Positions 7,958-60,469 of a DNA stretch of 64,000 bases are shown here, one piece after another. The translations under genes were made by a program, and so were the position numbers. Within the stretch, counting starts at the first letter, position 1; every line of letters starts with the position of its first letter. The DNA comes from Bacteroidia bacterium (GTDB lineage: Bacteria > Bacteroidota > Bacteroidia > Flavobacteriales > Flavobacteriaceae), in NCBI GenBank assembly GCA_030429955.1, contig JAUIGO010000006.1:1-64000 (forward strand), given 5' to 3'. The notes under the pieces were generated by a model. It did no database searches, had not been told where the DNA came from, and worked only from the letters and a program-made list of their open reading frames with translations.

Positions 7958-9964
7958 ATGAGCACAACGAGTAAATCAAAAGCTGAAATATCATACGACA
8001 AGAAGAGTTTAGATAAAGCCACTTTACTTAAACTTTATAAGAATATGTTGAAACCTCGAATGATTGAGGAAAAAATGCTGATTCTTTTAAGACAGGGAAA
8101 AATATCAAAATGGTTTTCTGGTATAGGTCAAGAGGCAATCTCTGTTGGCGTTACCATGGCACTTGACAAAGACGAATATATTTTACCAATGCATAGGAAT
8201 CTTGGTGTTTTCACGACTAGAGAAATTCCTTTGTTTAGACTTTTTTGCCAATGGCAAGGTAAGGCTCCAGGATTTACCAAGGGTAGAGATCGTTCTTTCC
8301 ATTTTGGAACTCAAGAATACAATATTGTTGGAATGATTTCTCATTTAGGACCACAACTTGGTGTTGCTGATGGCATTGCACTAGCAAACTTGCTTAAAAA
8401 GAACAACCAAGTAACAGCAGTGTTTACTGGCGAAGGAGGTACAAGTGAAGGTGATTTTCATGAAGCCCTTAACGTGGCTTCTGTCTGGAAACTTCCAGTA
8501 ATTTTTTGTGTTGAAAATAATGGTTATGGTCTGTCAACACCAACCTCAGAACAATATAATTGCAAACATATTGCAGATAGAGGTAAAGGGTACGGAATAG
8601 AATCTTTTATTCTTGATGGTAACAACATTATTGAGGTTTATGATAAAGTATCTAAACTGGCAGCAAGTATCAGAAAGCGTCCAAGACCAATTTTAATTGA
8701 GTTTAAAACCTTTAGAATGCGAGGTCATGAAGAAGCAAGTGGCACTAAGTATGTGCCTCAGGATTTAATGGATGCTTGGGCGAAAAAAGATCCAGTTGTA
8801 AATTTTCAATCTTATTTAAAAGATTTGGGAATTTTAAACGAAAAAACTGAGCTTGCTTTTAAAGAAGAAATCATCCATGAAATTAATGAAAATCTTGATA
8901 AAGCAGGAGCTGAACCTGCTATTGTTCCTAATTTGACTAATGAGTTAAATGATGTATATCAAGATTTTGAATATAAAGAAGTTAATCCTAAAGGTAAAAC
9001 TGAAGAGATGCGTTTTATTGATGCTATTTCATCAGGCTTAAAACAATCCATGCAACAACATAAAGATCTTGTTATAATGGGACAAGATATAGCAGATTAT
9101 GGAGGTGTTTTTAAAATTACAGAAGGTTTTGTAAAAGCTTTTGGAAAAGAACGTGTTAGAAACACACCTATTTGCGAATCAGCTATCGTTGAAGCAGGAA
9201 TGGGATTATCTATTGCTGGAATTAAAAGCGTAGTTGAAATGCAGTTTGCCGACTTTGTAACTTCAGGTTTTAATCCTGTGGTTAATTATTTGGCAAAATC
9301 CCATTACAGATGGAACCAAAATGCTGATGTAGTTGTGAGAATGCCTTGCGGAGCAGGAGTTGCTGCAGGCCCTTTTCATTCACAGACTAACGAAGCCTGG
9401 TTTACTAAAACACCTGGATTGAAAGTGGTTTATCCAGCCTTTCCAGTTGACGCCAAAGGTTTATTGGCTACAGCAATAAACGATCCGAATCCTGTGTTGT
9501 ATTTTGAGCATAAAGCCTTATACAGAAGCATTAGACAAGAAGTGCCTATTGATTATTACACCATTCCATTTGGTAAGGCGTCTTTAGTTAAAGAAGGTAA
9601 CGATATTACTATTGTGTCTTATGGTGCTGCTGTGCATTGGGCTTTAGATACTTTAGAGAAGCATCCAGAAATTAGTGCAGACTTACTTGATTTAAGAACC
9701 TTGTGTCCATTAGATACTGATGCTATTTTGCAATCCGTCAAAAAGACAGGGAAGGTTATTCTTTTGCAAGAAGACTCTCTTTTCGGAGGAATTGCTTCAG
9801 ATATTTCAGCTTTAATTATGGAAGAGTGTTTTGAAAATCTTGATGCTCCTGTAAAACGTGTTGCTAGTTTAGAAACTCCAATTCCTTTTATTGGCCAATT
9901 GGAAGAACAATACTTACCGAAACATCGTTTTGAAGAAACTTTATTGGCTTTACATAAGTATTAG
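7958..9964 (+). CDS. Fused alpha-beta E1 component of a branched-chain/2-oxoacid dehydrogenase
   Basis: 668 residues. The first half (to ~330) is an E1-alpha domain with the thiamine-diphosphate motif GEGGTSEGDF...VENNGYG at ~158-190 and the RMRGHEEASG loop. The second half (from ~345) is an E1-beta domain (MGQDIADYGGVFKITEGF, ESAIVEAGMGLSIAG, EMQFADF). Together they decarboxylate 2-oxoacids and acylate a lipoyl E2 protein. Single-chain alpha-beta fusions are common in Bacteroidota. No E2 or E3 gene is nearby. The start at 7958 is chosen over 7928 because the upstream ATG lies on the promoter box. Which 2-oxoacid is used cannot be read; branched-chain is most likely. Confidence 0.93.
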   Translation: MSTTSKSKAEISYDKKSLDKATLLKLYKNMLKPRMIEEKMLILLRQGKISKWFSGIGQEAISVGVTMALDKDEYILPMHRNLGVFTTREIPLFRLFCQWQGKAPGFTKGRDRSFHFGTQEYNIVGMISHLGPQLGVADGIALANLLKKNNQVTAVFTGEGGTSEGDFHEALNVASVWKLPVIFCVENNGYGLSTPTSEQYNCKHIADRGKGYGIESFILDGNNIIEVYDKVSKLAASIRKRPRPILIEFKTFRMRGHEEASGTKYVPQDLMDAWAKKDPVVNFQSYLKDLGILNEKTELAFKEEIIHEINENLDKAGAEPAIVPNLTNELNDVYQDFEYKEVNPKGKTEEMRFIDAISSGLKQSMQQHKDLVIMGQDIADYGGVFKITEGFVKAFGKERVRNTPICESAIVEAGMGLSIAGIKSVVEMQFADFVTSGFNPVVNYLAKSHYRWNQNADVVVRMPCGAGVAAGPFHSQTNEAWFTKTPGLKVVYPAFPVDAKGLLATAINDPNPVLYFEHKALYRSIRQEVPIDYYTIPFGKASLVKEGNDITIVSYGAAVHWALDTLEKHPEISADLLDLRTLCPLDTDAILQSVKKTGKVILLQEDSLFGGIASDISALIMEECFENLDAPVKRVASLETPIPFIGQLEEQYLPKHRFEETLLALHKY

Positions 9965-10019
9965 TATTTCTTTAACAAACTAAACCTTAATGGTTTAAAC
10001 TGAATATTTGTCAGATTTT

Positions 10020-10041
10020 CTGAAAATATTTCAGTTTTTTT
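10020..10041 (+). terminator. Probable intrinsic terminator after the E1 gene
   Basis: A short perfect hairpin CTGAAA-ATA-TTTCAG is directly followed by seven T residues, 56 bp after the E1 stop. The stem is only 6 bp and AT-rich, so strength is uncertain. Confidence 0.5.
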
Positions 10042-10103
10042 CATATGGTATTTTTTTTGTTGAATATGAATTAAATTAATGTTTAACTTAAAATTTAATA
10101 ATC

Positions 10104-10586
10104 ATGAGTGGTTTAATTCCAACAACAAAAAATGGTAATACTAAAACTGCTTCATTAGGTTTTAATATGTTACCAACGTTTCCATCTTGGATTGATGAAA
10201 TTATCAACAAGAATTTCGGAACAGAATTTATGTCAAACTTTAACACAGGTATCACTTTACCAGCAGTTAATGTTTTAGATACTGCTAATGATTACCTTGT
10301 TGAAATGGCAGTTCCTGGTTTAAAAAAATCAGACTTTAATATTAGTATTGATAACCAATTGTTATCAATATCAGCTGAAGTTAAGTCTGAATATGAAGAT
10401 GTAGATAATGAAAATTATACGCGAAGAGAATTTGGATATTCATCTTTTAAACGAACATTTACACTTCCAGAATCTGTAGAAACTGATAAAATTTCGGCTA
10501 AATACATTGATGGAATATTAAAAGTAACGCTTCCAAAACGAGAAGAAGCCAAGAAGAAACCATTAAAAAGTATCAAGGTTTCTTAA
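10104..10586 (+). CDS. Hsp20/alpha-crystallin small heat-shock protein
   Basis: 160 residues. An alpha-crystallin domain spans about residues 50-145: LPAVNVLDTANDYLVEMAVPGLKKSDF, the RREFGYSSFKRTFTLPESV strand region and the conserved IDGILKVTLPK (the usual A.GVL motif reads IDGILKVTLP). It is an ATP-independent holdase for unfolding proteins. A short phenylalanine/proline-rich N-terminal arm precedes it. Monocistronic, between two hairpin terminators. No CIRCE-like inverted repeat is seen upstream. Confidence 0.93.
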   Translation: MSGLIPTTKNGNTKTASLGFNMLPTFPSWIDEIINKNFGTEFMSNFNTGITLPAVNVLDTANDYLVEMAVPGLKKSDFNISIDNQLLSISAEVKSEYEDVDNENYTRREFGYSSFKRTFTLPESVETDKISAKYIDGILKVTLPKREEAKKKPLKSIKVS

Positions 10587-10591
10587 AACAG

Positions 10592-10618
10592 AAAAGCCAG
10601 CAAATAGCTGGCTTTTTT
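10592..10618 (+). terminator. Intrinsic terminator after hsp20
   Basis: A 10-bp perfect stem (AAAAGCCAGC / GCTGGCTTTT) with an AAATA loop, running into a T tract, 6 bp after the hsp20 stop. The reverse strand also ends in a T-rich run, so it probably also serves the convergent dipeptidase gene. Confidence 0.9.
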
Positions 10619-10638
10619 ATTTTATCAAAAGATTGGTT

Positions 10639-11937
10639 TTATTCGGCTTGTAATTTTTTTGCAACTTCTTGTACTTCATCAAGCACACGCAATAAATTAC
10701 CACTCCAAAGCATACCAATTTCGGTTTCAGTATATCCTCGTTTTACTAGCTCTAAGGTAACATTAAACGTTTCAGATGCATCGTTCCAACCTTCAACACC
10801 ACCACCACCATCAAAATCACTACTGATGCCTACGTGGTCTAATCCGATTTTTTCTACTAAATAATCAATATGATCTACAAAGTCTGAAACATTAACAGCT
10901 GGAGGAAAATCTGGCATTTTTTCAATTTCTGTATCTACAATACTCATCACTTTACTTCGGTTTTCCATAAATGCAGCTCGTTCATCTTCAGTTAATTTAC
11001 CAAAATCAGCTCTACTTGTAATCCACTTTATTCCCATAGAATCTGCAACTTTCATTTGTATTTCTCTTGATTTATCACTGCGAGCATCATTTTTTTCAGT
11101 ATTTACATAGCTTTTAAACGCTACAGTTTGTACAACACCTCCATTTTCTTTCATCCATTCTAATTGCTCATCATCTAAATTTCTACTATGATCACATAAA
11201 GCTCTAGCTGAAGAGTGAGATGCAATAATTGGAGCTTGAGTAAGTTCAATCATCTGACGCATAGCTTCTTTTGAAGGATGCGAAACATCTATCATCATTC
11301 CCCATTTATTCATTTCTTTTATCACTTCTTTACCAAAATCACTTAACCCATTATGTAGCCAAACATCATCAGCTTCTCCAGTGTTACTATCACTTAATTG
11401 ACTATGACCATTATGTGCTAAAGACATATAACGACCTCCTAAATCGTAGAATTTTTTAACGTTATTGATGTCCATTCCTATAGGATAACCATTTTCAATA
11501 CCAATCATGGCTACCTTTTTACCAGCAGCATCAATTCGTCTTACATCATCTGAAGTTGTTGCTAACTCAATTTCATCAGGAGCAATTTCTTCGACTAATC
11601 TGTGAATCGCATCAAATTTTGAAATGGCATTTTCATAAGCTTTTGCGTAACCTTCAACAGTAAGTGTATCTTGTCCTGTGTATACTATAAACCAGGCGAC
11701 ATCCAAACCTCCTTTTTTCATTTTTGGAAGGTTAACTTGGTTGTCCAATTCTTGGGTGTAATTGATGGAGTCAGTAAAATTGTTGACATTAATATCACAG
11801 TGTGTATCAAGTGTAATGACACGTTCGTGAATTTCTTTTGCTTTTGCAATAAGTTGTTCTTCAGTCATAGGCTGTTCAGCTTCTTTTTTACAAGAGGATA
11901 AAGTGAGAATTAGACATAAAAAAACAAGCTTAAACAT
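10639..11937 (-). CDS. Membrane dipeptidase (peptidase M19), lipoprotein
   Basis: 432 residues from the chosen start. The N-terminal MFKLVFLCLILTLSSC is a type II signal peptide (lipid-modified Cys16). The M19 fold shows the zinc ligands in ITLDTHCDINVN (HxD), later IDVSHPSKEAM and ASHSSARALCDHSRNLDDEQL, and the GISSDFDGGGGVEGW ending motif. M19 enzymes hydrolyse dipeptides, some with D-residues. ATG at 11982 is possible, but the ATG at 12054 lies upstream of the promoter box at 12011-12018 and is rejected. Likely outer-membrane anchored, fitting the peptide-degradation neighbourhood. Confidence 0.92.
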   Translation of the reverse strand: MFKLVFLCLILTLSSCKKEAEQPMTEEQLIAKAKEIHERVITLDTHCDINVNNFTDSINYTQELDNQVNLPKMKKGGLDVAWFIVYTGQDTLTVEGYAKAYENAISKFDAIHRLVEEIAPDEIELATTSDDVRRIDAAGKKVAMIGIENGYPIGMDINNVKKFYDLGGRYMSLAHNGHSQLSDSNTGEADDVWLHNGLSDFGKEVIKEMNKWGMMIDVSHPSKEAMRQMIELTQAPIIASHSSARALCDHSRNLDDEQLEWMKENGGVVQTVAFKSYVNTEKNDARSDKSREIQMKVADSMGIKWITSRADFGKLTEDERAAFMENRSKVMSIVDTEIEKMPDFPPAVNVSDFVDHIDYLVEKIGLDHVGISSDFDGGGGVEGWNDASETFNVTLELVKRGYTETEIGMLWSGNLLRVLDEVQEVAKKLQAE

Positions 11938-50130: not shown

Positions 50131-51228
50131 ATGATCAATTTAAAAATATTTCTATTTCAATGTTTTGTTCTATTTGCTTTACATGGGTTTTCACAGAACA
50201 ATAAAAAACTGCTTGGGCAAGAGCTTGACAACATGTTAAATCAATATCATAATAATGTCCAACTCAATGGGACAGTTCTGGTGGCAAAACAAGGAGAAGT
50301 ACTATATCAAAAATCATTTGGTAAAGCTGATATAAGTAAAAATATTCAAAACACTTTAGATACTAAATTCTCTATAGGTTCTTTAACTAAATCGTTTACA
50401 GCAATAGCAGTGATGCAATTGTATGAAAAAGGACTATTAAAGTTGCATGAACCTATTAAAACCTATGTGCCAGAGTTAAACACATTACTTGGAAAACTGA
50501 CGCTTCATCAACTTATGAAAAATATATCAGGCTTACCTGTGCATCTTAACAGAATTACCAACCTTGAGTATAGAGACATAACCTCTGAAGAACTTATAGC
50601 GTTGTACAATGACAAAGCTACCTTAGCCTTTGAACCAGGAACAGAATATAGTTATTCTAACCTTAATTATCAGCTGGCTTCAATTGTTGTAGAAAAAATA
50701 TCTAGGTTGTCTTTTGAGACCTATTTAAATCGATATGTTTTTAGCCCAGTTGATATGATAAATAGTGGAGTAGAAAAAACACATAATCACCCTTATGATA
50801 AAGCTAAAGGATATGATATAATTAACGGTAAGCTTGTAAAATCAGAACGGAATTATATGGCTTACGCCAAAGGAGGAGGAGATATTTATACCACAGCCAT
50901 AGATCTTTTAAAATGGGATCAAGCATTATATTCAAATAGTATAATATCAAATAATTCCAAAAATATTCTGTTTGATGGTAATCCTGATATTTATGATGGT
51001 TATGGTTACGGATTTAAAGTTAAATACTACAACAGGCATTCAGCTACTAAAGGCAAAATTGTAAGACATGGTGGTTCAATGTATGGTTATATCTGTAATA
51101 TCAATAGATATTTAGATGATCAGGTTACCATTATTATTCTTGGTAATATTAGACCCTTCCCAATAATGGAAATTAACAATACAATAGAAGATAAGCTGTA
51201 TAAATTTTGCATCTTACCTTGCAAATAG
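50131..51228 (+). CDS. Secreted serine hydrolase, class C beta-lactamase/PBP4*-like
   Basis: 365 residues. Signal peptide to GFSQ (~22). Motifs of the beta-lactamase family PF00144: SLTK (Ser84, Lys87) in FSIGSLTKSFTAIAV, the YSN motif in YSYSNLNYQLASIV, and HGG in RHGGSMYGY in place of KTG. Such proteins are mostly D-aminopeptidases, esterases or PBP-like enzymes and seldom true beta-lactamases. It starts 2 bp after the YD-like gene, so it is translationally linked to that protein and is the last gene of the cassette. Confidence 0.9.
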   Translation: MINLKIFLFQCFVLFALHGFSQNNKKLLGQELDNMLNQYHNNVQLNGTVLVAKQGEVLYQKSFGKADISKNIQNTLDTKFSIGSLTKSFTAIAVMQLYEKGLLKLHEPIKTYVPELNTLLGKLTLHQLMKNISGLPVHLNRITNLEYRDITSEELIALYNDKATLAFEPGTEYSYSNLNYQLASIVVEKISRLSFETYLNRYVFSPVDMINSGVEKTHNHPYDKAKGYDIINGKLVKSERNYMAYAKGGGDIYTTAIDLLKWDQALYSNSIISNNSKNILFDGNPDIYDGYGYGFKVKYYNRHSATKGKIVRHGGSMYGYICNINRYLDDQVTIIILGNIRPFPIMEINNTIEDKLYKFCILPCK

Positions 51229-51334
51229 ATGATGAATTAGGTGGTAAGAAGGAAGATAATTTCAATTTAAACTGTAACGTTTCCGTTAAAAAAGCATCTT
51301 ACTAGTATAACTAATCAATCAAAAATCAATCAAA

Positions 51335-52981
51335 ATGAAAAAAGTATTATTTTTCATCGCCTTTCTTATGGTGATGATGTCGTATGCCCAAAATCATCTT
51401 ACAGCTTCTCAATGGCAAGAAGACCTCAAGTTTCTTCAAGAAACCGTTCATCAGGATTATCCATTCTTATTCAAAAAAACTACTGCAAAAGAATTTGATG
51501 CTGCTGTAGAACAACTGAACTCCGAAATTCCAAACTTACAAGATCACGAAATTGTTGTTGGTATTGCACGAATTGTATCCTCGTTCAAATATGGACATAC
51601 AGACATCAGCTTCAGACAAGACCCTTTTACCTTTAGTCAGTTGCCATTTAACCTCTATCACTTTAGTGATGGTGTTTATATTCAAGGGACTCACAAAGAC
51701 TATCAAAACACATTAGGAGCAAAGGTTATTGCTGTGGAATCCACTCCAATTGCAAAAGCATTGGAAGCCATTTATCCTGTGGTTCCAGTTGAAAATGAGC
51801 AATACTTTAAGGCTTTTGGATTGAATTACTTGAAATTTCCAGAAGTGCTTCATGCTCAAAAAATCACGTCTACTTTAAAATCATCTATTGAATTGACTTT
51901 AGAAAAAGATGGTAAAACATTTAAACAAATCTTTAAAGCCTTGCCAAAAGGTGAGCGCGTTCCAGTGACTTACAACTTAGTAAAACAAGAAGGGGATTGG
52001 CTGGACGCAAGAAATCAAGATGAGACGCCTTATTACCTGAAGAATTTAGATAAAATCTATTATTACGAATATTTAGCTGATGAAAAAACGGTGTATGTAA
52101 GACATAGCCAAATACAAGATGATCCTTCAGAGGCTATTCCAGCCTTTTATAAACGTGTATTCGACTTTATTGATAGTAACGATGTAGAAAAATTGGTGAT
52201 TGATGTAAGATTGAATGGTGGAGGAAACAACTACAAAAACAAACCTATCATTACAGGCATTATTGAATCTGAAAAAATAAATAAAGTAGGAAAACTCTTT
52301 GTCATTATTGGCAGACGCACCTTTTCTGCATGTCAGAACTTGGTAAACGAAATGAGTAATTACACCAATGCCATCTTTATTGGAGAGCCAACTGCTGAGA
52401 ACATTAATTTTTATGGAGACAATAGAACCGTAACCTTGCCAAACAGTAAAATTCCAACTTATTTGTCGTTTGCTTGGTGGCAGGACAAACCGCAATGGGA
52501 AAATGCTGATTGGTTAGCACCTCACACTGCAGTAGATATGAGTTTTGAACAATACAAGACCAACCAAGATCCAGTTTTGGAAGCTGCGCTTTCTTATTCA
52601 GGAGAAGGTTATGTGCTTAATCCAATGCAGTATTTGACAGAATTATTTACAACTGGTCAGATAGAAAAGTTAAAAACAGAAGCAGCACAAATGGTTAAAG
52701 ACCCAAAATATAAGTTTTTTGACTTTGAAGGTGAAATTAATAAAGCTGGATATAATGTTCTGGGAAGTTGTCAAACCAAAGAAGCTATATTCATTTTTCA
52801 AATGGTTGCAGATTTGTTTCCGGATTCTGCCAATGCTTGGGATAGCTTGGCCGAAGCATATTTAAAAGTAGGAGATAAAGCAAAAGCATTAGAGTATTAC
52901 AATAAGGCTTTAAAGATGGATCCTAATGGAGAAACTGGGAAGCATGCTAGTGAAATGATTAAGGAAATTAATCAGAACTGA
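51335..52981 (+). CDS. Secreted S41-type peptidase-like protein with C-terminal TPR
   Basis: 548 residues. Signal peptide to SYAQ (~19). A helical N-terminal segment (QWQEDLKFLQETVHQDYPFLF) precedes an S41 core with VIDVRLNGGGNNY and GRRTFSACQNLVNEM, where the Ser is the presumed nucleophile, then IGEPTAENINFYGD. The C-terminal ~60 residues are a TPR pair (ANAWDSLAEAYLKVGDKAKALEYYNKAL). No PDZ domain is visible. Probably periplasmic or surface proteolysis. It has its own upstream gap of 106 bp. Confidence 0.87.
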   Translation: MKKVLFFIAFLMVMMSYAQNHLTASQWQEDLKFLQETVHQDYPFLFKKTTAKEFDAAVEQLNSEIPNLQDHEIVVGIARIVSSFKYGHTDISFRQDPFTFSQLPFNLYHFSDGVYIQGTHKDYQNTLGAKVIAVESTPIAKALEAIYPVVPVENEQYFKAFGLNYLKFPEVLHAQKITSTLKSSIELTLEKDGKTFKQIFKALPKGERVPVTYNLVKQEGDWLDARNQDETPYYLKNLDKIYYYEYLADEKTVYVRHSQIQDDPSEAIPAFYKRVFDFIDSNDVEKLVIDVRLNGGGNNYKNKPIITGIIESEKINKVGKLFVIIGRRTFSACQNLVNEMSNYTNAIFIGEPTAENINFYGDNRTVTLPNSKIPTYLSFAWWQDKPQWENADWLAPHTAVDMSFEQYKTNQDPVLEAALSYSGEGYVLNPMQYLTELFTTGQIEKLKTEAAQMVKDPKYKFFDFEGEINKAGYNVLGSCQTKEAIFIFQMVADLFPDSANAWDSLAEAYLKVGDKAKALEYYNKALKMDPNGETGKHASEMIKEINQN

Positions 52982-53052
52982 TTTATTAATCATTCAGATA
53001 TTTATTTAGAAAAGGAAGTATTCAATTTATGTTGGATATTATCTTTTCTTTA

Positions 53053-53084
53053 TTTGTAAAATCGTATACGATATATTATATTTG
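53053..53084 (+). promoter_or_regulatory. Full promoter (-33 TTTG, N20, -7 TATATTTG) with GntR-type operator
   Basis: TTTG at 53053-53056 and TATATTTG at 53077-53084 are separated by exactly 20 bp, an ideal Bacteroidota sigma-A spacing. The spacer holds a perfect 12-bp palindrome ATCGTATACGAT (53061-53072). Its GTATAC centre resembles operators of FadR/VanR-subfamily GntR proteins. The -7 box ends 4 bp before the ATG at 53089, suggesting a leaderless mRNA. Autorepression by the encoded GntR protein is the simplest reading. Confidence 0.75.
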
Positions 53085-53088
53085 ACAG

Positions 53089-53727
53089 ATGATAATCAAA
53101 ATTACTTTGCGAGATCAAGTCAAAAGTTTTCTTCAAGATCAAATGATGAATGGAGAATTAAGCTTTGGAGAACGAATTTCATTACCAGTTCTAGCAAAAA
53201 AACTAAATGTTAGTGTTACACCAATTCGTGAGGCTTTAACACAGCTTCAACATGCTGACATCGTTGAAGCCATACCCAACAGAGGATTCTTTTTGCCATT
53301 ACCTAATATTGAAAAGGTTTCTGAGCTGTATCCAATAATAGCCAATCTTGAATACTTAGGTGTTAGTGAGTCTACTTATTCAGAAAAAGACATTAATAGA
53401 CTTGAAGCATTATTCGAGAAGGAAAATACCTTTGACAATCCAGTGGATAGAATTCAGTCAGACATAAAGTTTCATGAATTGTTACTGAAAAATTACAAAA
53501 ACGACGCTTTGAAAAGCTTTTTATATGATTTAAAGTTACGCGTTTTTCTCTATGAATTTTATTATATGGAAGATGCCAACTTAGCACAAACATCTTCAAA
53601 TTATCATAAAAATATAATCGCTTCATTAAAAAAAGGTAATTCGTTAAAGGCAGCAGATCTTATTAAAGAGAGTTGGTTAACTAGCATTCAATTTATTCAA
53701 CAACATTTTAAACAAAAAGCATCATGA
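53089..53727 (+). CDS. GntR-family regulator (FCD/FadR subfamily)
   Basis: 212 residues. N-terminal winged helix: QVKSFLQDQMMNGELSFGERISLPVLAKKLNVSVTPIREALTQLQ and GFFLPLPN. The C-terminal part is all-helical, FCD-like (IQSDIKFHELLLKNYKNDAL and a final FQ-rich helix), where a small organic acid or similar effector binds. It overlaps the S41 lipoprotein gene by 4 bp, so both are made together, and the operator upstream of it would control both. Confidence 0.9.
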   Translation: MIIKITLRDQVKSFLQDQMMNGELSFGERISLPVLAKKLNVSVTPIREALTQLQHADIVEAIPNRGFFLPLPNIEKVSELYPIIANLEYLGVSESTYSEKDINRLEALFEKENTFDNPVDRIQSDIKFHELLLKNYKNDALKSFLYDLKLRVFLYEFYYMEDANLAQTSSNYHKNIIASLKKGNSLKAADLIKESWLTSIQFIQQHFKQKAS

Positions 53728-55163
53728 AATATTTAAAACCTATCGAATACATCGTTTTAGCTTTATTATTGACTCTTATTTCGTGTAAGGAAGAAAACAA
53801 AAATGAAGAAAAAACCTTAGATGGTTATTGGGAATCTGTAGGTTATGGAAGAATTGCTAAAGTAGAAAATGGACATTTTTCTCTATTTGATATTACAGAT
53901 ATTTCATGTTTGCAAGTATTGGATGGAGAAGTCAGTGATTTTGGAAAGAACATCACTTATGAAGGTGATACTTTAAGCATTAAAGATGGTATAAATATGT
54001 ACTATTTTAAGAGATTGGACAGCATTCCAACAATTTGCCACGAAATGGTTTCAGAAAAAAAGATGAACGATCCCGTTTATAATTTCGAAGTGCTTTCTAA
54101 TACCTTTAAAAATCATTATGCTTATTTTGAAGAACGAGGCATCAATTGGGATGCTATGTATAATAAATATAAAGCTAAGGTGACGACTGAGACAACAGAA
54201 GCTGAACTTTATAATATTATGGAAGATATGCTGGATTCCTTTAACGATGGACACATTGGGTTAAGTGCTCCAGATGATGTCGAGAAAGCTGCTGCTGAAC
54301 TTAGAAATGAAGATGCAGAATTTGTTGAAGAAAAAAGCAATGTTCAACCAAGTAAGCGATATCAAAACCATGAAGTTGCCAATGCTATTGCAGAACATTA
54401 CATCAAAGATTTAAAATCAAGACGCAATAAAATGGTGCAATGGGGAAATTTAAGTGATAAGATAGGTTATATGCAATTGAACCAAATGATGGGATTAGGT
54501 GATTATCAATTGGCAGATTCTCTATCAGGTAGAGATTATTGGCTAGCTTTCTTTGAAAAGGCAGATGAGTTGCCTACAGAAGAATTTACAAAGAAAGAAT
54601 TAGAAGGCATTAAAAATATTATGAATGAAGTGATGAATGATTTATCAGACAAAGATGCGATTATTATTGATGTTCGTTTTAATGGAGGAGGTAAGGACGA
54701 AGTAGGTTTAGAAGTACTCAGGCATTTCAATGATACAAAACGCTTGGTTTTTACCAAGAAAGCAAAACTTGGAGATGGTTATACAAAACCCATTAAAATA
54801 GAATTATTGGCTACAGATAAAGCCTTTAAAAAGCCAGTTTATTTATTGACATCAAGGGAATCTGCAAGCGCAACAGAAATCATGATATTAGCTTCTTTGT
54901 CACTTGAAAACGTCACGAGATTAGGTGGAACTTCTGAAGGTGTGTTTTCAGATATTTTTGATAGATTGCTGCCAAATGGCTGGGAATTTGGATTATCTAA
55001 CGAAGTGTATTTAGACACTAAAGGAAATAATTATGAAGGTAAAGGGATATCTCCAGACGTTGATCTTAATTATTCAACTGAAAAGCAGGAGTTCTTATCA
55101 ACCATAATGAACAATTTAAGCTCAAATGGAGATGCTACAATTGAAAAGCTCATAAATAATTAA
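53724..55163 (+). CDS. S41-family peptidase lipoprotein
   Basis: 479 residues. Lipoprotein signal peptide ending in TLISC (Cys21). A lipocalin/propeptide-like first part (DGYWESVGYGRIAKVENG) precedes an S41 domain: DMLDSFNDGHIGLSAP, IIIDVRFNGGGKDEVGLEVL and TSRESASATEIMILA with the presumed catalytic Ser. It ends with GKGISPDVDLNYS, typical for the family. No PDZ. Its start overlaps the gntR stop by 4 bp, so its production is probably regulated by that protein's ligand. Outer- or inner-membrane anchored. Confidence 0.9.
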   Translation: MKYLKPIEYIVLALLLTLISCKEENKNEEKTLDGYWESVGYGRIAKVENGHFSLFDITDISCLQVLDGEVSDFGKNITYEGDTLSIKDGINMYYFKRLDSIPTICHEMVSEKKMNDPVYNFEVLSNTFKNHYAYFEERGINWDAMYNKYKAKVTTETTEAELYNIMEDMLDSFNDGHIGLSAPDDVEKAAAELRNEDAEFVEEKSNVQPSKRYQNHEVANAIAEHYIKDLKSRRNKMVQWGNLSDKIGYMQLNQMMGLGDYQLADSLSGRDYWLAFFEKADELPTEEFTKKELEGIKNIMNEVMNDLSDKDAIIIDVRFNGGGKDEVGLEVLRHFNDTKRLVFTKKAKLGDGYTKPIKIELLATDKAFKKPVYLLTSRESASATEIMILASLSLENVTRLGGTSEGVFSDIFDRLLPNGWEFGLSNEVYLDTKGNNYEGKGISPDVDLNYSTEKQEFLSTIMNNLSSNGDATIEKLINN

Positions 55164-55173
55164 ACAACTTATT

Positions 55174-55929
55174 TTAATTTCCTCCAAACCAAGTTTTAAA
55201 AGCCGATACACGATCTCGGCTTACAATAATGTCATTGTCTGTTGATACATTTAAGATGAGCTTTAATCTACTGTTTGAATAGACAATGACATCTTTTATA
55301 GCTTCCATATTTACAATGAAGGTCCTGTTTACACGCATAAAACTGTTGGAATCTAATACTTGATCTAAGTCCTCAAGCTTATAATCCAAAATAAACTTCT
55401 TGCCTTCATTAGTGACTAAGAAAACCGTTCGGCCTTCGGCATAAAACAAAGCAGTTTCTTCAGTTTTAATGGAATGTATATGATTGCCCAATCGTACCAA
55501 AAACCTGTTCTTAAAGGCCTTGTTGCTAAAGGCTTCAGAAGCATTTTGAATGGTTTCGGTTGATAGCACAGATTTAAAATTTTTAAACTTAGTCAGCGCC
55601 TTTGAAACTTCAGTAAAGGTAATGGGTTTTAAAATATAATCAATGCTGTTGAGTTTAAAGGCATCCACAGCAAATTCATCAAATGCAGTTGTGAAAATAA
55701 TGGGTTTTTGTACTTGAACCTGGTTGAATATCTCAAAACTTAATCCATCACTCAATTGAATATCCACAAAAAGTATGTCAACCGAATTTTCATTACTTCT
55801 TAACCAATTTACAGCATCAGCAACACTAGTCAATTTGGCTACAATTGCAATGCTGTCGTCATATTTTAAAATATAACGTTCTAGCTTTTCAGCAGCTGGA
55901 AGCTCGTCTTCTATAATTAATGCATTCAT
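55174..55929 (-). CDS. LytTR-family response regulator
   Basis: 251 residues. N-terminal receiver domain: NALIIEDELPAAEKLE (acidic pocket), phospho-acceptor Asp56 in LFVDIQLSDGLS, the Thr in IIFTTAFDEFAVDAF, and Lys in DYILKPI. The C-terminal LytTR DNA-binding domain (FLVRLGNHIHSIKTEE, LEDLDQVLDSNSFMRVNRTFIVN) binds direct repeats ~21-22 bp apart in known members. It overlaps the degenerate kinase gene by 4 bp and is the last gene of a kinase operon. It convergently meets the S41 lipoprotein gene with a 10-bp gap. Confidence 0.93.
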   Translation of the reverse strand: MNALIIEDELPAAEKLERYILKYDDSIAIVAKLTSVADAVNWLRSNENSVDILFVDIQLSDGLSFEIFNQVQVQKPIIFTTAFDEFAVDAFKLNSIDYILKPITFTEVSKALTKFKNFKSVLSTETIQNASEAFSNKAFKNRFLVRLGNHIHSIKTEETALFYAEGRTVFLVTNEGKKFILDYKLEDLDQVLDSNSFMRVNRTFIVNMEAIKDVIVYSNSRLKLILNVSTDNDIIVSRDRVSAFKTWFGGN

Positions 55930-56954
55930 GAATTGTTTTTGGTTAAAAGTTTAGGAATTTTTATGGTTCTATAATTTTGCGATTCTTCAATAAGGACATT
56001 GTCTTTACTGTAAATAGCGTATCGATAATCAATATCACTCATCGCTTCCTTTTTAAAACCTGAAACGATCTTATCATTTTTTAAATAATTGAATATCAAA
56101 TGATTTTCATCTTCATCTAAATGGATACTCAAAGGTTTTTCTGAATTGTTAATGGTGCTTCTAATGATGCTTTCAACCAATGAAAGTAAACTTCCTGGTA
56201 CCACCAAAAAGCTAGAATTCACTTGATTGTTTAATATTACATTTCTGAATGGTAAGTAATTAAACAATTGTACAAGTTCATCAACTACAAGTAATTCTTC
56301 ATTAATCAAAACCAGTTGCTTACTCTTTTTTGATAAAATATAACGATACACCAATGCCATGTGGTCTATCAGGTTATCAACCTTATCGGAATGTTGCCTT
56401 ATCAATACAATCATGGCTTCAAAGCATTCAAACAAAAGCGTTGGGTTGATGCCATTTTTAAACTGCATAAAATCATCTTCAACCATTTGCTTCATTAAGT
56501 ATTCATTTTCAAGTCGCTTCGTATTGACTTTGTACAAATAATGATGGCTAATATGAAGCAAAACATAGATGATTGTAATGGTACAAAAGATACTGTTGAA
56601 CATCCATAATTCACCAGAACTAGGCGTGAAACCTAAGATGTTTTTATAATATAAATTAATGGATACAGTTACTAAAATAATACAAAGTAACATGGAGCCA
56701 ACAATTTGTATTATCAGCTTTATAAAGGAGGATAAGCTTGAAGGCAATTTGTTAAATATCCAGAGTAAAAGCCTTGAAAATTCCTGAATAACAAAGGATA
56801 AGCCAATACAAAAATAGAGTTCGTTACCTAAAAATTGATCTTGAAGTTGTTCAACTTTATTATTAATGAGTAGAATAAGTAAGTACACAACGATACCACT
56901 AAAAATAGGACTGAATAGCCTAAACAAAGGATGATGTATAAATAGCCTATTCAT
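55926..56954 (-). CDS. Degenerate membrane histidine kinase (pseudokinase, His_kinase-like)
   Basis: 342 residues. About four N-terminal helices (residues ~12-140), then a His_kinase-like region: the H-box usually NPHFLFN reads NPTLLFECF, with Thr172 (codon confirmed at 56439-56441) in place of the phosphorylated His. The N-box usually VENAIKH reads VESIIRSTINN, so the Mg-binding Asn is missing. It is therefore unlikely to autophosphorylate. It is tightly packed between the intact kinase (8-bp overlap) and LytTR regulator (4-bp overlap), which points to a regulatory partner or heterodimer subunit. Confidence 0.85.
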   Translation of the reverse strand: MNRLFIHHPLFRLFSPIFSGIVVYLLILLINNKVEQLQDQFLGNELYFCIGLSFVIQEFSRLLLWIFNKLPSSLSSFIKLIIQIVGSMLLCIILVTVSINLYYKNILGFTPSSGELWMFNSIFCTITIIYVLLHISHHYLYKVNTKRLENEYLMKQMVEDDFMQFKNGINPTLLFECFEAMIVLIRQHSDKVDNLIDHMALVYRYILSKKSKQLVLINEELLVVDELVQLFNYLPFRNVILNNQVNSSFLVVPGSLLSLVESIIRSTINNSEKPLSIHLDEDENHLIFNYLKNDKIVSGFKKEAMSDIDYRYAIYSKDNVLIEESQNYRTIKIPKLLTKNNS

Positions 56955-58002
56955 GGTTGTTAATTATTGGGATTTTTACTGTGTAATGATTGTCTTCCAA
57001 AACAGAAATCTCTTTGTTATAAAGCAGTTTAAACCTGGAATTGATATTGTTTAATCCAATATTAAAGGAACTGACTTTTTTAGGCGCTTCTGTAATATTG
57101 TTTTTAATAATAAGGTGTTCTTGGTCTTCAAAAACATCGATGATGAGCGGTTTTGCTTCTGAAGCCTGATTGTGTTTCACAGCATTTTCAACTAACATTT
57201 GTAAAGCCAATGGTGGAATTTGATGCTGTAAATTAGATTCTGAAATAGTAATGGAATAGTTTAAAACGTCACCAAATCGAGTACTTAAAAGTGATAAATA
57301 AGCTTTTACAACATCCAACTCTTCTTGAATACTTACCAGCTTTACATGATAGCTATTAAGGGTATAATGATATATTTTAGCAAGACCTCTAATATAATTT
57401 TCAGCCTGTTCAGCGTCTTTAAACGCCAAGGATGAAATGGTATTCAGGTTATTGAACAAAAAGTGGGAACTCAGTTGAGACTTTAATGCTTTAAGCTGTA
57501 ATTCATAGTGTTTGCGCTCAAATTTCACAGTTTCAATTTGAAGTTTTGAATAGGTATAGTAGGAGTAGAGTGCAAAATAAATGATGTTGTAAATAAGCAT
57601 CAAAATAAACAGGATGATGCCTAGTTTTATCAGATTGCTTTGATATAGTTCTTTTTCTAAAGTGACTTGACTTAAAAACTTTTTGTACAACAAGAACAAT
57701 CCATAAATCAATGCATAATTCGCTATGAACAAAAAAGCAATGCCACTAATGAATCTATTGACAAGCTGGGATTTCCAAGGAAGGAGTTTATCTAACTTAA
57801 CGGAACTGAAAAACGTAAGATAAGCCAATAATACGCCACCAAGTGCACTTAATACGAGTTCTAAGGTGTTGTATGCTTTACCTTCAGGGCTTATGCTTAC
57901 ACCAAAGTAATTGTAGAGCAATAGTCCTAAAAATAGACCTAAAGCTGTGATGAGCAAATGCTTTTTCACAATTGGATTATTGAGTTGGTTAGATAAAATC
58001 AT
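56947..58002 (-). CDS. Membrane sensor histidine kinase (LytS/His_kinase family)
   Basis: 351 residues. About four N-terminal helices (to ~residue 150), then the His_kinase domain: H-box LKSQLSSHFLFNNLNTIS with phospho-His180, HATPase N-box LQMLVENAVKHNQ (Asn273) and G-box NIGLNNINSRFKLLY. All catalytic elements are intact, in contrast to the next gene. It should phosphorylate the LytTR regulator. The start is just 4 bp after a 10-bp-arm inverted repeat, which would form a hairpin next to the start codon in the mRNA. Confidence 0.92.
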   Translation of the reverse strand: MILSNQLNNPIVKKHLLITALGLFLGLLLYNYFGVSISPEGKAYNTLELVLSALGGVLLAYLTFFSSVKLDKLLPWKSQLVNRFISGIAFLFIANYALIYGLFLLYKKFLSQVTLEKELYQSNLIKLGIILFILMLIYNIIYFALYSYYTYSKLQIETVKFERKHYELQLKALKSQLSSHFLFNNLNTISSLAFKDAEQAENYIRGLAKIYHYTLNSYHVKLVSIQEELDVVKAYLSLLSTRFGDVLNYSITISESNLQHQIPPLALQMLVENAVKHNQASEAKPLIIDVFEDQEHLIIKNNITEAPKKVSSFNIGLNNINSRFKLLYNKEISVLEDNHYTVKIPIINNHE

Positions 58003-58006
58003 AGAA

Positions 58007-58062
58007 CCAAGGTAATCAATCTAGACTAAACTTAAAATCTAGTACAAGACTAATTACCTTGG
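58007..58062 (-). repeat. Inverted repeat/hairpin just upstream of the kinase start codon
   Basis: Perfect 10-bp arms CCAAGGTAAT (58007-58016) and ATTACCTTGG (58053-58062) flank a 36-base loop that itself contains a CTAGA/TCTAG pairing. In the minus-strand transcript the second arm ends 4 bases before the kinase ATG. It lies between the SDHY-repeat gene and the kinase, so it may be an mRNA structure separating their expression. Confidence 0.65.
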
Positions 58063-58071
58063 AAATTTTGG

Positions 58072-59436
58072 TTAGTCTATTGCTTTAATGGCGCGACCAT
58101 AATAAGTGTCTGAGCCAATAGATTTTGCAGCCGTTCTGTAAGCAGCTTTCACGCGCTCTGATGATCGTCTTACCTTATCAGCAAAAGAAGATAAAGCTTG
58201 AGTCATATAGTGGTCAGATTGTATATGGCTTAATGAATTGAGCACAGCAATTAACTGATCCTCAGTTAAATCATGATCTCCCATTTTCTTATAAATCGTT
58301 GATGCATAATGATCAGATTGAATGCTATTCTTAACAATACCCAGCAACTTGTTTAAAGAACTTGCACTAACATCAAGTTTTTTGTCAAGCAATTCTCTTA
58401 TGACTTCAGAGATATAATGATCTGAATTGATATCGCCTAAGGTTCCTAAAAAGGCATCATAAGCGCTATTAGGCAAACCTTTGTCGTTAATCACTTTTTT
58501 AAGCACTTGAGTTTTGTAATGATCCGATTGGATATCTTTTGAAAGTGAAATGATTCTAGAAATATTCTGAGAGTTTAATTCTCTGTTATCCATAACTTCG
58601 GTTAGAATTTGAGTCATATAGTGATCGGATTTCACATCTTTTGAAATTTCCAGTAAACTCTCCATCTGGCTATCAGTGATGTTTTTATCATTAATTACTT
58701 TCTTTAAAACACTTGTTGTATAGTGATCAGACTCAATACTCTTTGCAGCACCAATATATGCTGAGATTGTTTCGCTATTTGATAAAAACGCTTTTTGATT
58801 AGACTCTAAAATGCTTGCTAAATAGTAATCAGAATCTATTTCTTTCCCAGCTACTTCAATGGTTTTGACTAATTCATCATTTGACAATTTCTTTTCTAAT
58901 AGCAACTTAAAGTAAGCAGCATTGACGTAGTCGCTTTCAATTCTTCCAATTTCTGCTAAAACGGCATTGGCGCCTCCCTTGCTGTAAAAACGATTGACAC
59001 GAGCTTCAGCTGCAAGAGTTGTATTTCTTACTACTTCTTGTAATACTTCAGCAAGCCATTCTTTGCCGTCAGGATTAAAATCTTTTTCAGAACGACCTTC
59101 GTAGTATTTTTTAATTAGGTTTCCGTTTCTGTCAGATTCAATAACAATACGTCTTTTGTTTCCAAATGAGGATCGCTCTATCTCAACAAAACCACCATTG
59201 GAAATGGCAACAATATCTTTATCGTCGTCGGATAAAGTAATGTCTCCTTCGTATTCAATTTTAAATTCTTTACCATTATTGGTAATTTGAATTTTGCCTT
59301 TGCCATCGTTGCTAATTGAGTAGTTTGATTTTGATTTTGTTCTTGATTGAGAGTGAGTGCTCGATGGAAGCACCATTAGAAATGCAAGTAATGCAATGCT
59401 AAAGATTTGATTTCGTTTGATAAATAATGTTGTCAT
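58072..59436 (-). CDS. Secreted protein with nine ~34-residue SDHY repeats
   Basis: 454 residues from ATG 59436 (the upstream ATG at 59466 overlaps the promoter box). Signal peptide ending near THSQS (~31). Residues ~37-110 are a strand-rich segment (NNGKEFKIEYEGDITLSDDD). From ~166 onward nine helical repeats each begin with I/V-x-SD-x/H-Y; the Ser residues fall at about 168, 202, 237, 270, 304, 338, 374, 407 and 442, i.e. 33-36 residues apart. This suggests an alpha-solenoid. Function unknown. It is the promoter-proximal gene of the kinase/LytTR operon. Confidence 0.85.
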   Translation of the reverse strand: MTTLFIKRNQIFSIALLAFLMVLPSSTHSQSRTKSKSNYSISNDGKGKIQITNNGKEFKIEYEGDITLSDDDKDIVAISNGGFVEIERSSFGNKRRIVIESDRNGNLIKKYYEGRSEKDFNPDGKEWLAEVLQEVVRNTTLAAEARVNRFYSKGGANAVLAEIGRIESDYVNAAYFKLLLEKKLSNDELVKTIEVAGKEIDSDYYLASILESNQKAFLSNSETISAYIGAAKSIESDHYTTSVLKKVINDKNITDSQMESLLEISKDVKSDHYMTQILTEVMDNRELNSQNISRIISLSKDIQSDHYKTQVLKKVINDKGLPNSAYDAFLGTLGDINSDHYISEVIRELLDKKLDVSASSLNKLLGIVKNSIQSDHYASTIYKKMGDHDLTEDQLIAVLNSLSHIQSDHYMTQALSSFADKVRRSSERVKAAYRTAAKSIGSDTYYGRAIKAID

Positions 59437-59463
59437 AACTGTTCGTTTATTTGATTGATAGCA

Positions 59464-59471
59464 CAAATGTA
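59464..59471 (-). promoter_or_regulatory. -7 promoter box TACATTTG of the SDHY/kinase/LytTR operon
   Basis: On the minus strand TACATTTG matches TAnnTTTG and ends 27 bp before the chosen ATG at 59436. No -33 TTG is found at normal spacing, in line with a promoter that needs an activator. Confidence 0.6.
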
Positions 59472-59500
59472 TATGACAAGCTTAGGTTTAAAAAACCCAA

Positions 59501-59532
59501 TGTAGTGAATTACACTTTTTTTGTAGTGAATT
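59501..59532. promoter_or_regulatory. Two 11-bp direct repeats 21 bp apart, probable LytTR-regulator site
   Basis: TGTAGTGAATT occurs at 59501-59511 and identically at 59522-59532, start-to-start 21 bp (about two helical turns). LytTR proteins bind two direct repeats with this type of spacing. The pair is ~30 bp upstream of the TACATTTG box, i.e. about -45 and -66 from the expected start, the normal position for an activator. The operon it precedes encodes a LytTR regulator. Confidence 0.7.
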
Positions 59533-59557
59533 GTAATTTATTGATTTTTAAAGAGAT

Positions 59558-60469
59558 TTAAAGCTCATTCTGAGTAAAAAACTCATAAATAGTTTTAGAT
59601 ATTTGTGCTAATTGGTCTGTGCCTTTGTCGAAATCTTTTAGATTTTTTGAAAGCAGCACCAAAACATACTGACGACCATCTTGAAGATAGACAATGGCTG
59701 CATCGTGATGTACTCCAGTGATACTTCCTGTTTTATGAGCAACTTCAATGGTTTCTGGTAAGTATTTAGGAATCATATCATTCCATTCTTGACGCTTTAA
59801 TATAGCTATCATAGCATTACAATCGTTCTTGGTTCCAGCTTTCCCTTCTGCAATAGCTTTCATAATAACCAATAAGTCGTTTGCAGTTGTAGAATTGCTT
59901 AAACCCAAATCGTAAGCTTTTTGATCTTCAACACCTCGTAATACTTCAATCTTATCAGCACCTAAACTTCGCATGGTTTGGTTTACTTTTTTAGCAACTA
60001 CAATTTCAATCAAAACATTGGTAGCAAGGTTGCTACTCACTGTAATCATAGGAACCATTAAATCATATAGTGTTTGTTTTGTACCAATTTTACTGTAAAT
60101 AACATCGTCGCTATCATCACCAATATCCATGCTGTAAGAACTGCCATCAACAATACTTTTAAACTCGTTGACTAAAACAATAGAATCATTAAGACTTAGC
60201 AGTCCTTCATTTTGTTGTTTATATAACTCAATCATCACTGGAACTTTCATGGTGCTTGCTGCATGAAAGTTTTCATCAGTGTTAATCATGATGGAATTTG
60301 ATTCGTTAGAGAGGTCCAATAAAGCAACAGCAATATCGCCATCAATGTCTGCTATTTGATTTTCAATTTTAGTTTTTAAGTCAGCAATAGTATGTTTTGT
60401 ATCTGTTTTACAAGAAATAAAAGTCAAAAGAACAAATAATATAATTGTGTGTTTTATAAAGTTTCGCAT
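59558..60469 (-). CDS. Class A beta-lactamase-like serine hydrolase, lipoprotein
   Basis: 303 residues. Lipoprotein signal LLTFISC (Cys20). Class A elements: STMK (Ser72, Lys75), SSN in place of SDN (Ser145, Asn147), a Glu181 spaced 36 residues after Ser145 exactly as Glu166 after Ser130, and KTG (Lys246-Gly248). Asn170 of the class A omega loop is replaced by Ala185, and ~13 residues are inserted between the first two motifs. It belongs to the beta-lactamase2 group; true beta-lactam hydrolysis is possible but unproven. Divergent from the EamA transporter across a 36-bp palindrome. Confidence 0.85.
   Translation of the reverse strand: MRNFIKHTIILFVLLTFISCKTDTKHTIADLKTKIENQIADIDGDIAVALLDLSNESNSIMINTDENFHAASTMKVPVMIELYKQQNEGLLSLNDSIVLVNEFKSIVDGSSYSMDIGDDSDDVIYSKIGTKQTLYDLMVPMITVSSNLATNVLIEIVVAKKVNQTMRSLGADKIEVLRGVEDQKAYDLGLSNSTTANDLLVIMKAIAEGKAGTKNDCNAMIAILKRQEWNDMIPKYLPETIEVAHKTGSITGVHHDAAIVYLQDGRQYVLVLLSKNLKDFDKGTDQLAQISKTIYEFFTQNEL

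Follow-up and report, generated by a model that had tools for sequence, protein, structure and literature searches.

A co-inherited LytTR two-component unit with a pseudokinase and an exported repeat protein in Bacteroidota, probably activating its own promoter

Two-component systems of the LytS/LytTR type, such as AgrCA, BtsSR and YpdAB, pair a PF06580 kinase with a receiver-LytTR regulator, and paired direct repeats with a period of 21 bp lie upstream of the promoter. An extract of one paper gives 9-bp repeats with a 12-bp spacer for LytTR (PMC2766830), and the excerpted text of another describes autoactivating LytTR proteins with 9-bp repeats, mostly 12 bp apart and biased to 10 bp upstream of the -35 element (PMC6193735). 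According to the latter text, the repeats of the LytTR regulatory systems (LRS; HdrRM type) were shown to give positive autoregulation. Here we describe an operon that shares kinase, regulator and repeats with the LytS/LytTR-type systems, yet differs from them in that all operons examined also encode a dead second kinase and an exported repeat protein. It lies on the minus strand of a stretch of 64,000 nucleotides (contig JAUIGO010000006.1, positions 1 to 64,000; hereafter the window) from a bacterium of the Flavobacteriaceae family, known from a 3.09-Mb draft genome of 121 contigs (G000). The operon encodes, in this order, the SDHY protein, a histidine kinase (HK), a pseudokinase (pHK) and a LytTR regulator:

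58072-59436, minus strand: SDHY protein, 454 amino acids (aa), ATG start, no Pfam match
56947-58002, minus strand: HK, a PF06580 histidine kinase (Pfam) with His180, N-box Asn273 and G2-box Gly316
55926-56954, minus strand: pHK, a pseudokinase with His replaced by Thr (GINPTLLFE) and with the N-box Asn and G2-box Gly lost
55174-55929, minus strand: LytTR response regulator with the receiver Asp (Pfam and alignment)

In Pfam searches HK matched PF06580 at E 3.3e-22, pHK matched it more weakly (E 8.3e-7; 29.6 bits against a cut-off of 25.2), and the regulator matched PF00072 and PF04397; the receiver Asp was present in 19/19 rows of an alignment read by eye. With this Asp and a LytTR domain in the regulator, the His, N-box and G2-box in the PF06580 kinase and repeats of about 9 bp with a 12-bp spacer, the locus has the traits of a LytTR two-component system. 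The excerpted text of PMC6193735 describes the LRS with the same 9-bp direct repeats, mostly 12 bp apart and about 10 bp upstream of the promoter, but as a LytTR protein with a membrane inhibitor, whereas here there are a receiver domain and a kinase, and the operon falls outside the LRS so described. Overall, we find it well supported that the locus represents a LytTR unit whose genes are inherited together and which probably activates itself. It also seems to us reasonably probable that all four proteins work as one such unit, in which exported SDHY would provide the input and the promoter would be self-activated.

The gene order, as the sequence-only reading of the window had given it, was the same in 19/19 operons compared, namely that of the window, L034 and 17 from other genomes of the family sample, while the flanking genes mostly varied. 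L034, from a Flavobacteriaceae metagenome assembly, is the one relative that the scan of named genomes turned up (pHK 87% identical). A phylum-wide profile search of 395 genomes detected SDHY in ten: the window's own, five that hold all four genes (L142-L146) and four in which SDHY has different partners. The five share the same four-gene order (5/5), two of them coming from the window's family and three from two other families, and bring the total to 24 operons.

In the family sample of 249 genomes SDHY was detected in 19, and pHK matches at E <= 1e-20 were found in 30. Eighteen of these matches, at E <= 9.1e-79, are orthologues, and every one occurs in an SDHY-positive genome (Fisher p 1.7e-26 for the co-occurrence across the 249 genomes); the best matches in the remaining 12 genomes reach E 3.6e-23 or weaker and come mostly from longer kinases, with frames of about 450 aa. 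The genes are thus co-conserved, as had been expected of a functional unit, both in order (19/19 and 5/5 operons) and in occurrence (18/18 pHK orthologues). As judged from these genomes, the unit is scattered across Bacteroidota, with a patchy distribution, because SDHY is absent from the one genome that represents another member of the window's genus in the 249-genome sample.

Upstream of the SDHY gene, the sequence-only reading had noted two identical 11-mers exactly 21 bp apart and a box some 30 bp after them. Both observations hold, and the promoter region reads as follows:

59522-59535, minus strand: upstream LytTR half-site TACAATTCACTACA, with a counterpart in 19/19 operons
59501-59514, minus strand: downstream LytTR half-site TGTAATTCACTACA, exactly 21 bp from the first; same spacing in 19/19 and 5/5 operons, weak in two
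59490-59495, minus strand: T-tract at the place of the -33 element, TTTT in 19/19 operons
59471-59464, minus strand: -7 box TACATTTG, 29 bp after the second half-site

The 11-mer TGTAGTGAATT, at 59501 and 59522 (period 21), is the sole exact repeat of at least 11 bases at a distance of 20-23 bp in the window, and the pair pattern occurs a single time in the draft genome. Repeats were likewise found upstream of the orthologous operons: half-sites with the majority sequence TACAATTCACTACA stand exactly 21 bp apart in 24/24 operons, being weak in two (L145 and L146). In the 19 operons, AnnTT[TC]G follows 29 bp past the second half-site, the preceding base being T or C in 18 and A in one; the invariant TTTT (19/19) ends 20 bp before the -7 box, and the conserved elements hold their register across about 80 bp without a gap. 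It is at the position of this tract that the -33 element of Bacteroidota promoters is expected. Hence, the earlier statement that a -33 element is lacking has to be corrected. A longer SDHY frame starting with TTG at 59466 was rejected because this start falls within the -7 box.

The spacing also emerged without any consensus. The best 14-mer self-identity in the 19 upstream regions peaked at 21 bp (mean 10.05/14), other spacings between 14 and 40 bp gave 6.5-8.3, and 40 shuffles at 21 bp gave a mean of 7.56 (sd 0.20, maximum 8.00); 21 bp was the best spacing in 9.3/19 regions with ties shared, the runner-up spacing in 2.0. The repeats as a product of chance were rejected by these shuffles, by the uniqueness of the pair in the window and the genome and by the site-model scan described below. 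If ACAATTCAC is taken as the 9-bp core, the gap to the T-tract is 9 bp. The promoter geometry equals that of LytTR autoactivation as published in the excerpted text of PMC6193735, and it strongly suggests that the system activates its own operon, as claimed earlier, while binding and its sign remain predicted.

A sequence-only site model of 45 columns was built from the 19 operons and searched against the 249 genomes with stricter filters (25 scored candidates per genome, E <= 1e-3). It matched in 18/18 operon genomes and in 1/231 others (G014). In each of the five operons outside model building, the upstream site was the top-scoring position of its own locus, and these five sites together with that of G014 were the top six of 128,472 positions (49.1, 46.9, 46.4, 33.1, 14.1 and 13.4; the next scored 1.8). 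A [TC]AnnTTTG box was seen by eye at the expected distance in three of L142-L146. The G014 site precedes a gene with weak TPR matches (L123), followed by a PF06580 kinase with two transmembrane segments (PF06580-2TM), a 2TM protein and a regulator that shares 42% identity with that of the window. Contig 115 of the window's own genome bears a paralogous system (L082, 3640-7822), composed of a 141-aa gene, a 205-aa gene with a weak TPR match, a gene for a PF06580-2TM kinase, two small genes and one for a LytTR-type regulator 43% identical to the window's. A weaker 21-bp repeat pair is located at -97 before the first gene of this system. Since both the G014 and the contig 115 systems bear such sites, LytTR operons of this sort may commonly regulate themselves through 21-bp repeats; it is the pseudokinase and SDHY that set the window operon apart.

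The similar 21-bp sites before the first genes of these paralogous systems (C115, L082; G014, L123) would also suit a genuine site through which the regulator would repress its own operon, or which other LytTR regulators would use, so that the operon is not self-wired. We regard this as improbable. Repression agrees poorly with half-sites placed upstream of the promoter elements and not over them, as in published LytTR autoactivation; as for other regulators, the model at E <= 1e-3 matched only operon genomes and G014, though paralogous-type kinases occur in 12 genomes without the operon.

The description of the system as self-wired, offered together with a proposal to scan the genome for repeat pairs, fits the site before its own operon, but it proved too narrow, since further target sites exist. 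The exact pair pattern is unique in its own genome, whereas the site model uncovered at least eight further sites in 19 genomes. This 19-genome search returned more than 100 matches up to E 1, of which 10 non-operon ones with E up to 0.0035 were examined; two (L121 and L122) were dropped, as their match covers about one half-site only, leaving seven at E <= 1e-3 and one just over this threshold (L119, E 0.0014, that is, 1.4e-3), which was kept. Either 150 or 25 candidates were scored per genome in the searches, so further sites may exist. The eight sites precede five PF00144 hydrolase genes, one S41 peptidase gene and two DUF5916 genes, and an operon-like -7 box stands at the same distance (within one base) in 5/8. 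By their N-terminal ends, judged by eye, the target products look exported, a MarR regulator excepted. Three genomes (G066, G082 and G083) account for six sites: five before PF00144 genes (four with this gene first, one with it behind the MarR gene) and a sixth before the S41 peptidase gene, PF00144 matches per genome numbering only 23, 44 and 38. In the window's genome, a site lies upstream of the gene for an 894-aa DUF5916/CBM9 protein on contig 58, and the orthologue in G090 is preceded likewise.

Two observations touch on these sites. In L146 (G555), a DUF5916/CBM9 gene, cut by the stretch end, directly follows the operon (8866-11001), and no full site was seen by eye in the 139-bp gap between the two. 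The window also contains a partial match to the model at 2791-2816 (model positions 14-39, one half-site; E 0.007).

The verdict of the sequence-only reading that the second kinase is degenerate is confirmed by the comparison of the operons. HK retains all three residues (the phospho-acceptor His, N-box Asn and G2-box Gly) in 24/24 operons, and pHK has them in 0/24, 2/24 and 1/24, respectively; in pHK, one of D, E, T, N, R, M, K and S stands in place of the His, in surroundings that mostly read GINPxLLF[ED]. HK and pHK are homologous across 325 columns (20% identity, hhalign 99.8%), and this homology combined with the loss of catalytic residues qualifies pHK, by sequence, as a pseudo-histidine kinase. 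In a tree of 61 rows, HK, pHK and 13 other-kinase rows each came out as a group of their own in all 200 bootstrap trees (100%), and the branching of HK and pHK was, by eye, largely parallel. Because of this topology the pair looks old and kept, with pHK appearing as an old, retained pseudokinase.

The loss of active-site residues would also fit pHK being an independent membrane scaffold or a decaying duplicate with no HK partner, and the AlphaFold2 (AF2) model of pHK (mean pLDDT 37.6) was not used, so structure lends no support to the HK-pHK pairing. We find this very hard to believe, however: pHK is intact in 24/24 operons, forms one group in the tree and has largely kept its remodelled H-box (mostly GINPxLLF[ED]), and in 19/19 operons its frame shares 4 or 8 bases with that of HK. 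As regards HK itself, hydropathy shows four membrane segments in 4/5 HKs tried, including the window's, and three in the fifth (L080). The protein seems to be without a large extracytoplasmic sensor domain, as the loops between the segments count only 9-24 residues.

SDHY is composed of a signal-peptide-like start before Gln30, an N-terminal beta region (about 38-115) and a helical-repeat solenoid, a candidate for the HEAT/ARM type. The nine repeats noticed earlier were found as nine SDxY-type motifs about 34 aa apart, and the motif reads mostly SDHH in 8/19 relatives (L071-L075, L077-L079). Signal-peptide-like starts and an invariant Gln are present in 18/18 aligned rows (alignment A3, which holds 18 of the 19 SDHY rows, L078 being left out). 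In AF2 modelling with two sequences the solenoid mostly reached pLDDT 85-96, and the N-terminal beta region was poorly resolved, with low confidence. SDHY had no Pfam match at E 0.1, no NCBIfam match over the cut-off and no match in PDB by sequence; among solved structures just generic solenoids were found (Foldseek, VIA), and the best PHROGs match was at E 0.011. Matches to four cyanobacterial plasmid records (23-26% identity, E 5e-6 to 4e-8), which fall on an NB-ARC protein in two records and on a 'regulatory protein' in the other two, were set aside as generic repeats.

The four SDHY genes with other partners tell more about the possible role of the protein. In L147 and L150, from another family, the SDHY gene comes after the gene of an extracytoplasmic function (ECF)-type sigma factor (Pfam) and two small membrane protein genes, the first product of which has, in our reading, His/Cys motifs like those of a zinc-finger anti-sigma factor, without a Pfam match. 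In L148 and L149, from distant groups of Bacteroidota, it follows Penicillinase_R (BlaI) and Peptidase_M56 (BlaR1) genes. There, the M56 proteins themselves give matches to the SDHY profile in their C-terminal tails (residues 534-672, E 7e-9; residues 480-600, E 9e-7; values that apply to the small set of context frames searched), and the repeated motif SSGDK/R is readable in both the M56 tail and the free SDHY protein. SDxY-type repeats may also follow M56 domains in Acidobacteria, which served as a lead only; L148 and L149 both belong to the window's phylum. In known BlaR1, the C-terminal side is extracellular and senses beta-lactams, as stated in the excerpted text of PMC7593790. SDHY is thus likely to be a signal-input arm, because repeats of the same kind occur on the BlaR1 sensing side and on its free exported neighbour. 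The window operon shares with the BlaI-BlaR1 systems these repeats, the adjoining of SDHY relatives and PF00144 genes among the outputs, but it has neither BlaI nor an M56 protein (Pfam) and is therefore not a BlaI-BlaR1 system.

The same findings leave room for SDHY as an effector, an exported scaffold or protective protein placed under differing envelope-stress regulators (LytTR, ECF sigma, BlaI-BlaR1), with the kinases sensing by themselves. SDHY stays constant while the regulators around it vary, and in the LytTR operons it is promoter-proximal. Moreover, genes next to BlaI-BlaR1 are commonly its targets. The excerpted text of PMC7593790 describes the mechanism of that system. Still, an effector alone does not predict repeats of the same kind in both BlaR1 C-terminal tails, on the sensing side in known BlaR1, and pHK orthologues were never found without SDHY (18/18); we consider an effector-only role a serious alternative, though the less likely one. 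For the earlier hypothesis that the exported protein reports an envelope state, it follows that the BlaR1 repeat tails favour it, while the change of regulators around SDHY fits an effector as well.

Keeping in mind the likely input role, the following sequence of events can be proposed. HK and pHK would join in a mixed complex in the membrane, with HK as its sole phosphorylatable member and pHK setting the activity of HK. The exported SDHY solenoid would serve as an extracytoplasmic arm that informs this pair of an envelope condition, either activating it when bound to a ligand or restraining it in the manner of CpxP until titrated away. CpxP has a feedback role in its own system. An exported accessory protein in a two-component system is what the unit shares with CpxA-CpxR-CpxP, as outlined in the excerpted text of PMC4755656; here, in contrast, there are two kinases, one of them dead, and SDHY is likened to CpxP by its export-signal-like start and its place in the operon alone. 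Phosphorylated by HK, the regulator would then bind the repeats and switch on the operon, beginning with SDHY, so that it would feed back positively on itself while a second feedback would run through SDHY. In several species it may also activate exported beta-lactamase/penicillin-binding protein-like serine hydrolases, an S41 peptidase or a DUF5916 outer-membrane-type protein, and for this reason the response would concern the cell envelope, perhaps peptidoglycan or peptide damage. The exported hydrolase and peptidase types (PF00144, S41) among the targets, a beta-lactamase-like neighbour (see below) and BlaR1 as an alternative partner point to the cell wall. We infer the direction of regulation and the ligand from sequence.

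Several points weigh against such a scheme. SDHY may occur without its partners: G112 (64% complete), the nineteenth SDHY genome of the family sample, has an SDHY fragment without kinases after it (L081, 2-232), this being the C-terminal end of SDHY at the contig start. L145 and L146 (2/24 operons) carry clearly weaker sites. Further targets vary from species to species, and DUF5916 homologues, found at E <= 1e-100 in 19/23 genomes, have a site in only 2/25 cases, so that DUF5916 as a core regulon was rejected. Cross-binding is possible, since the window's genome holds a paralogous LytTR system whose site is similar, though weaker. The excerpted text of PMC10653868 describes BtsS as a pyruvate receptor with seven transmembrane segments; LytS-type kinases can sense within the membrane, and SDHY therefore need not be the sensor. 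At the level of sequence, both a sensor and an effector role of SDHY would fit, the latter because the regulators change while SDHY stays.

Tentatively, one might go further and suppose that SDHY-repeat proteins are a general exported input module of Bacteroidota, serving three unrelated kinds of transmembrane signalling system alike (kinase/pseudokinase-LytTR, ECF sigma/anti-sigma and BlaR1-BlaI), possibly through pairing of like repeats, such as those of free SDHY with those in the BlaR1 tail, and that here the module controls an HK-pHK heterodimer responding to cell-wall or peptide damage; we rate this wider view as possible, with the balance tilting against it. The SDHY family, unrecognised by Pfam and NCBIfam, stands beside three kinds of signalling system, and sensing or function established in one would inform the others. 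The unit links LytTR signalling to BlaR1-type signalling and to PF00144 hydrolases. For bacterial two-component signalling, it also offers a conserved and testable example of a kinase paired with a pseudokinase, for which the promoter site and some members of the likely regulon are at hand. Among the matches listed in a literature search covering few subscription journals, no paper named a pseudokinase-LytTR system or a repeat-bearing BlaR1, which is weak evidence of novelty. According to the excerpted text of PMC10197871, both a LytTR gene and a kinase gene of Flavobacterium johnsoniae acquired mutations during coevolution.

A few observations concern the surroundings of the operon. An 18-base leader, ATCAATCAAAAAACGAAC, a variant of which lies at 59437-59460 of the window, is found, exactly or as close variants, just 5' of the start codons of SDHY and of unrelated genes, e.g., DUF5916. 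As a part of the system it was rejected: eight genomes, with or without the operon (G001 being one without), hold 0-2 exact copies each, and the reversed control gave 0. The gene immediately upstream of the operon in the window, in the same orientation, is a PF13354 class A beta-lactamase-like gene (59558-60469); L034 and L064 have such a gene at the same place, and in L066 it lies one gene further off. Adjoining the operon on the other side, at 50131-55163, are genes for a PF00144 serine hydrolase, two S41 peptidases and a GntR regulator, and the PF00144 and S41 families of this cluster recur as site targets in other genomes.

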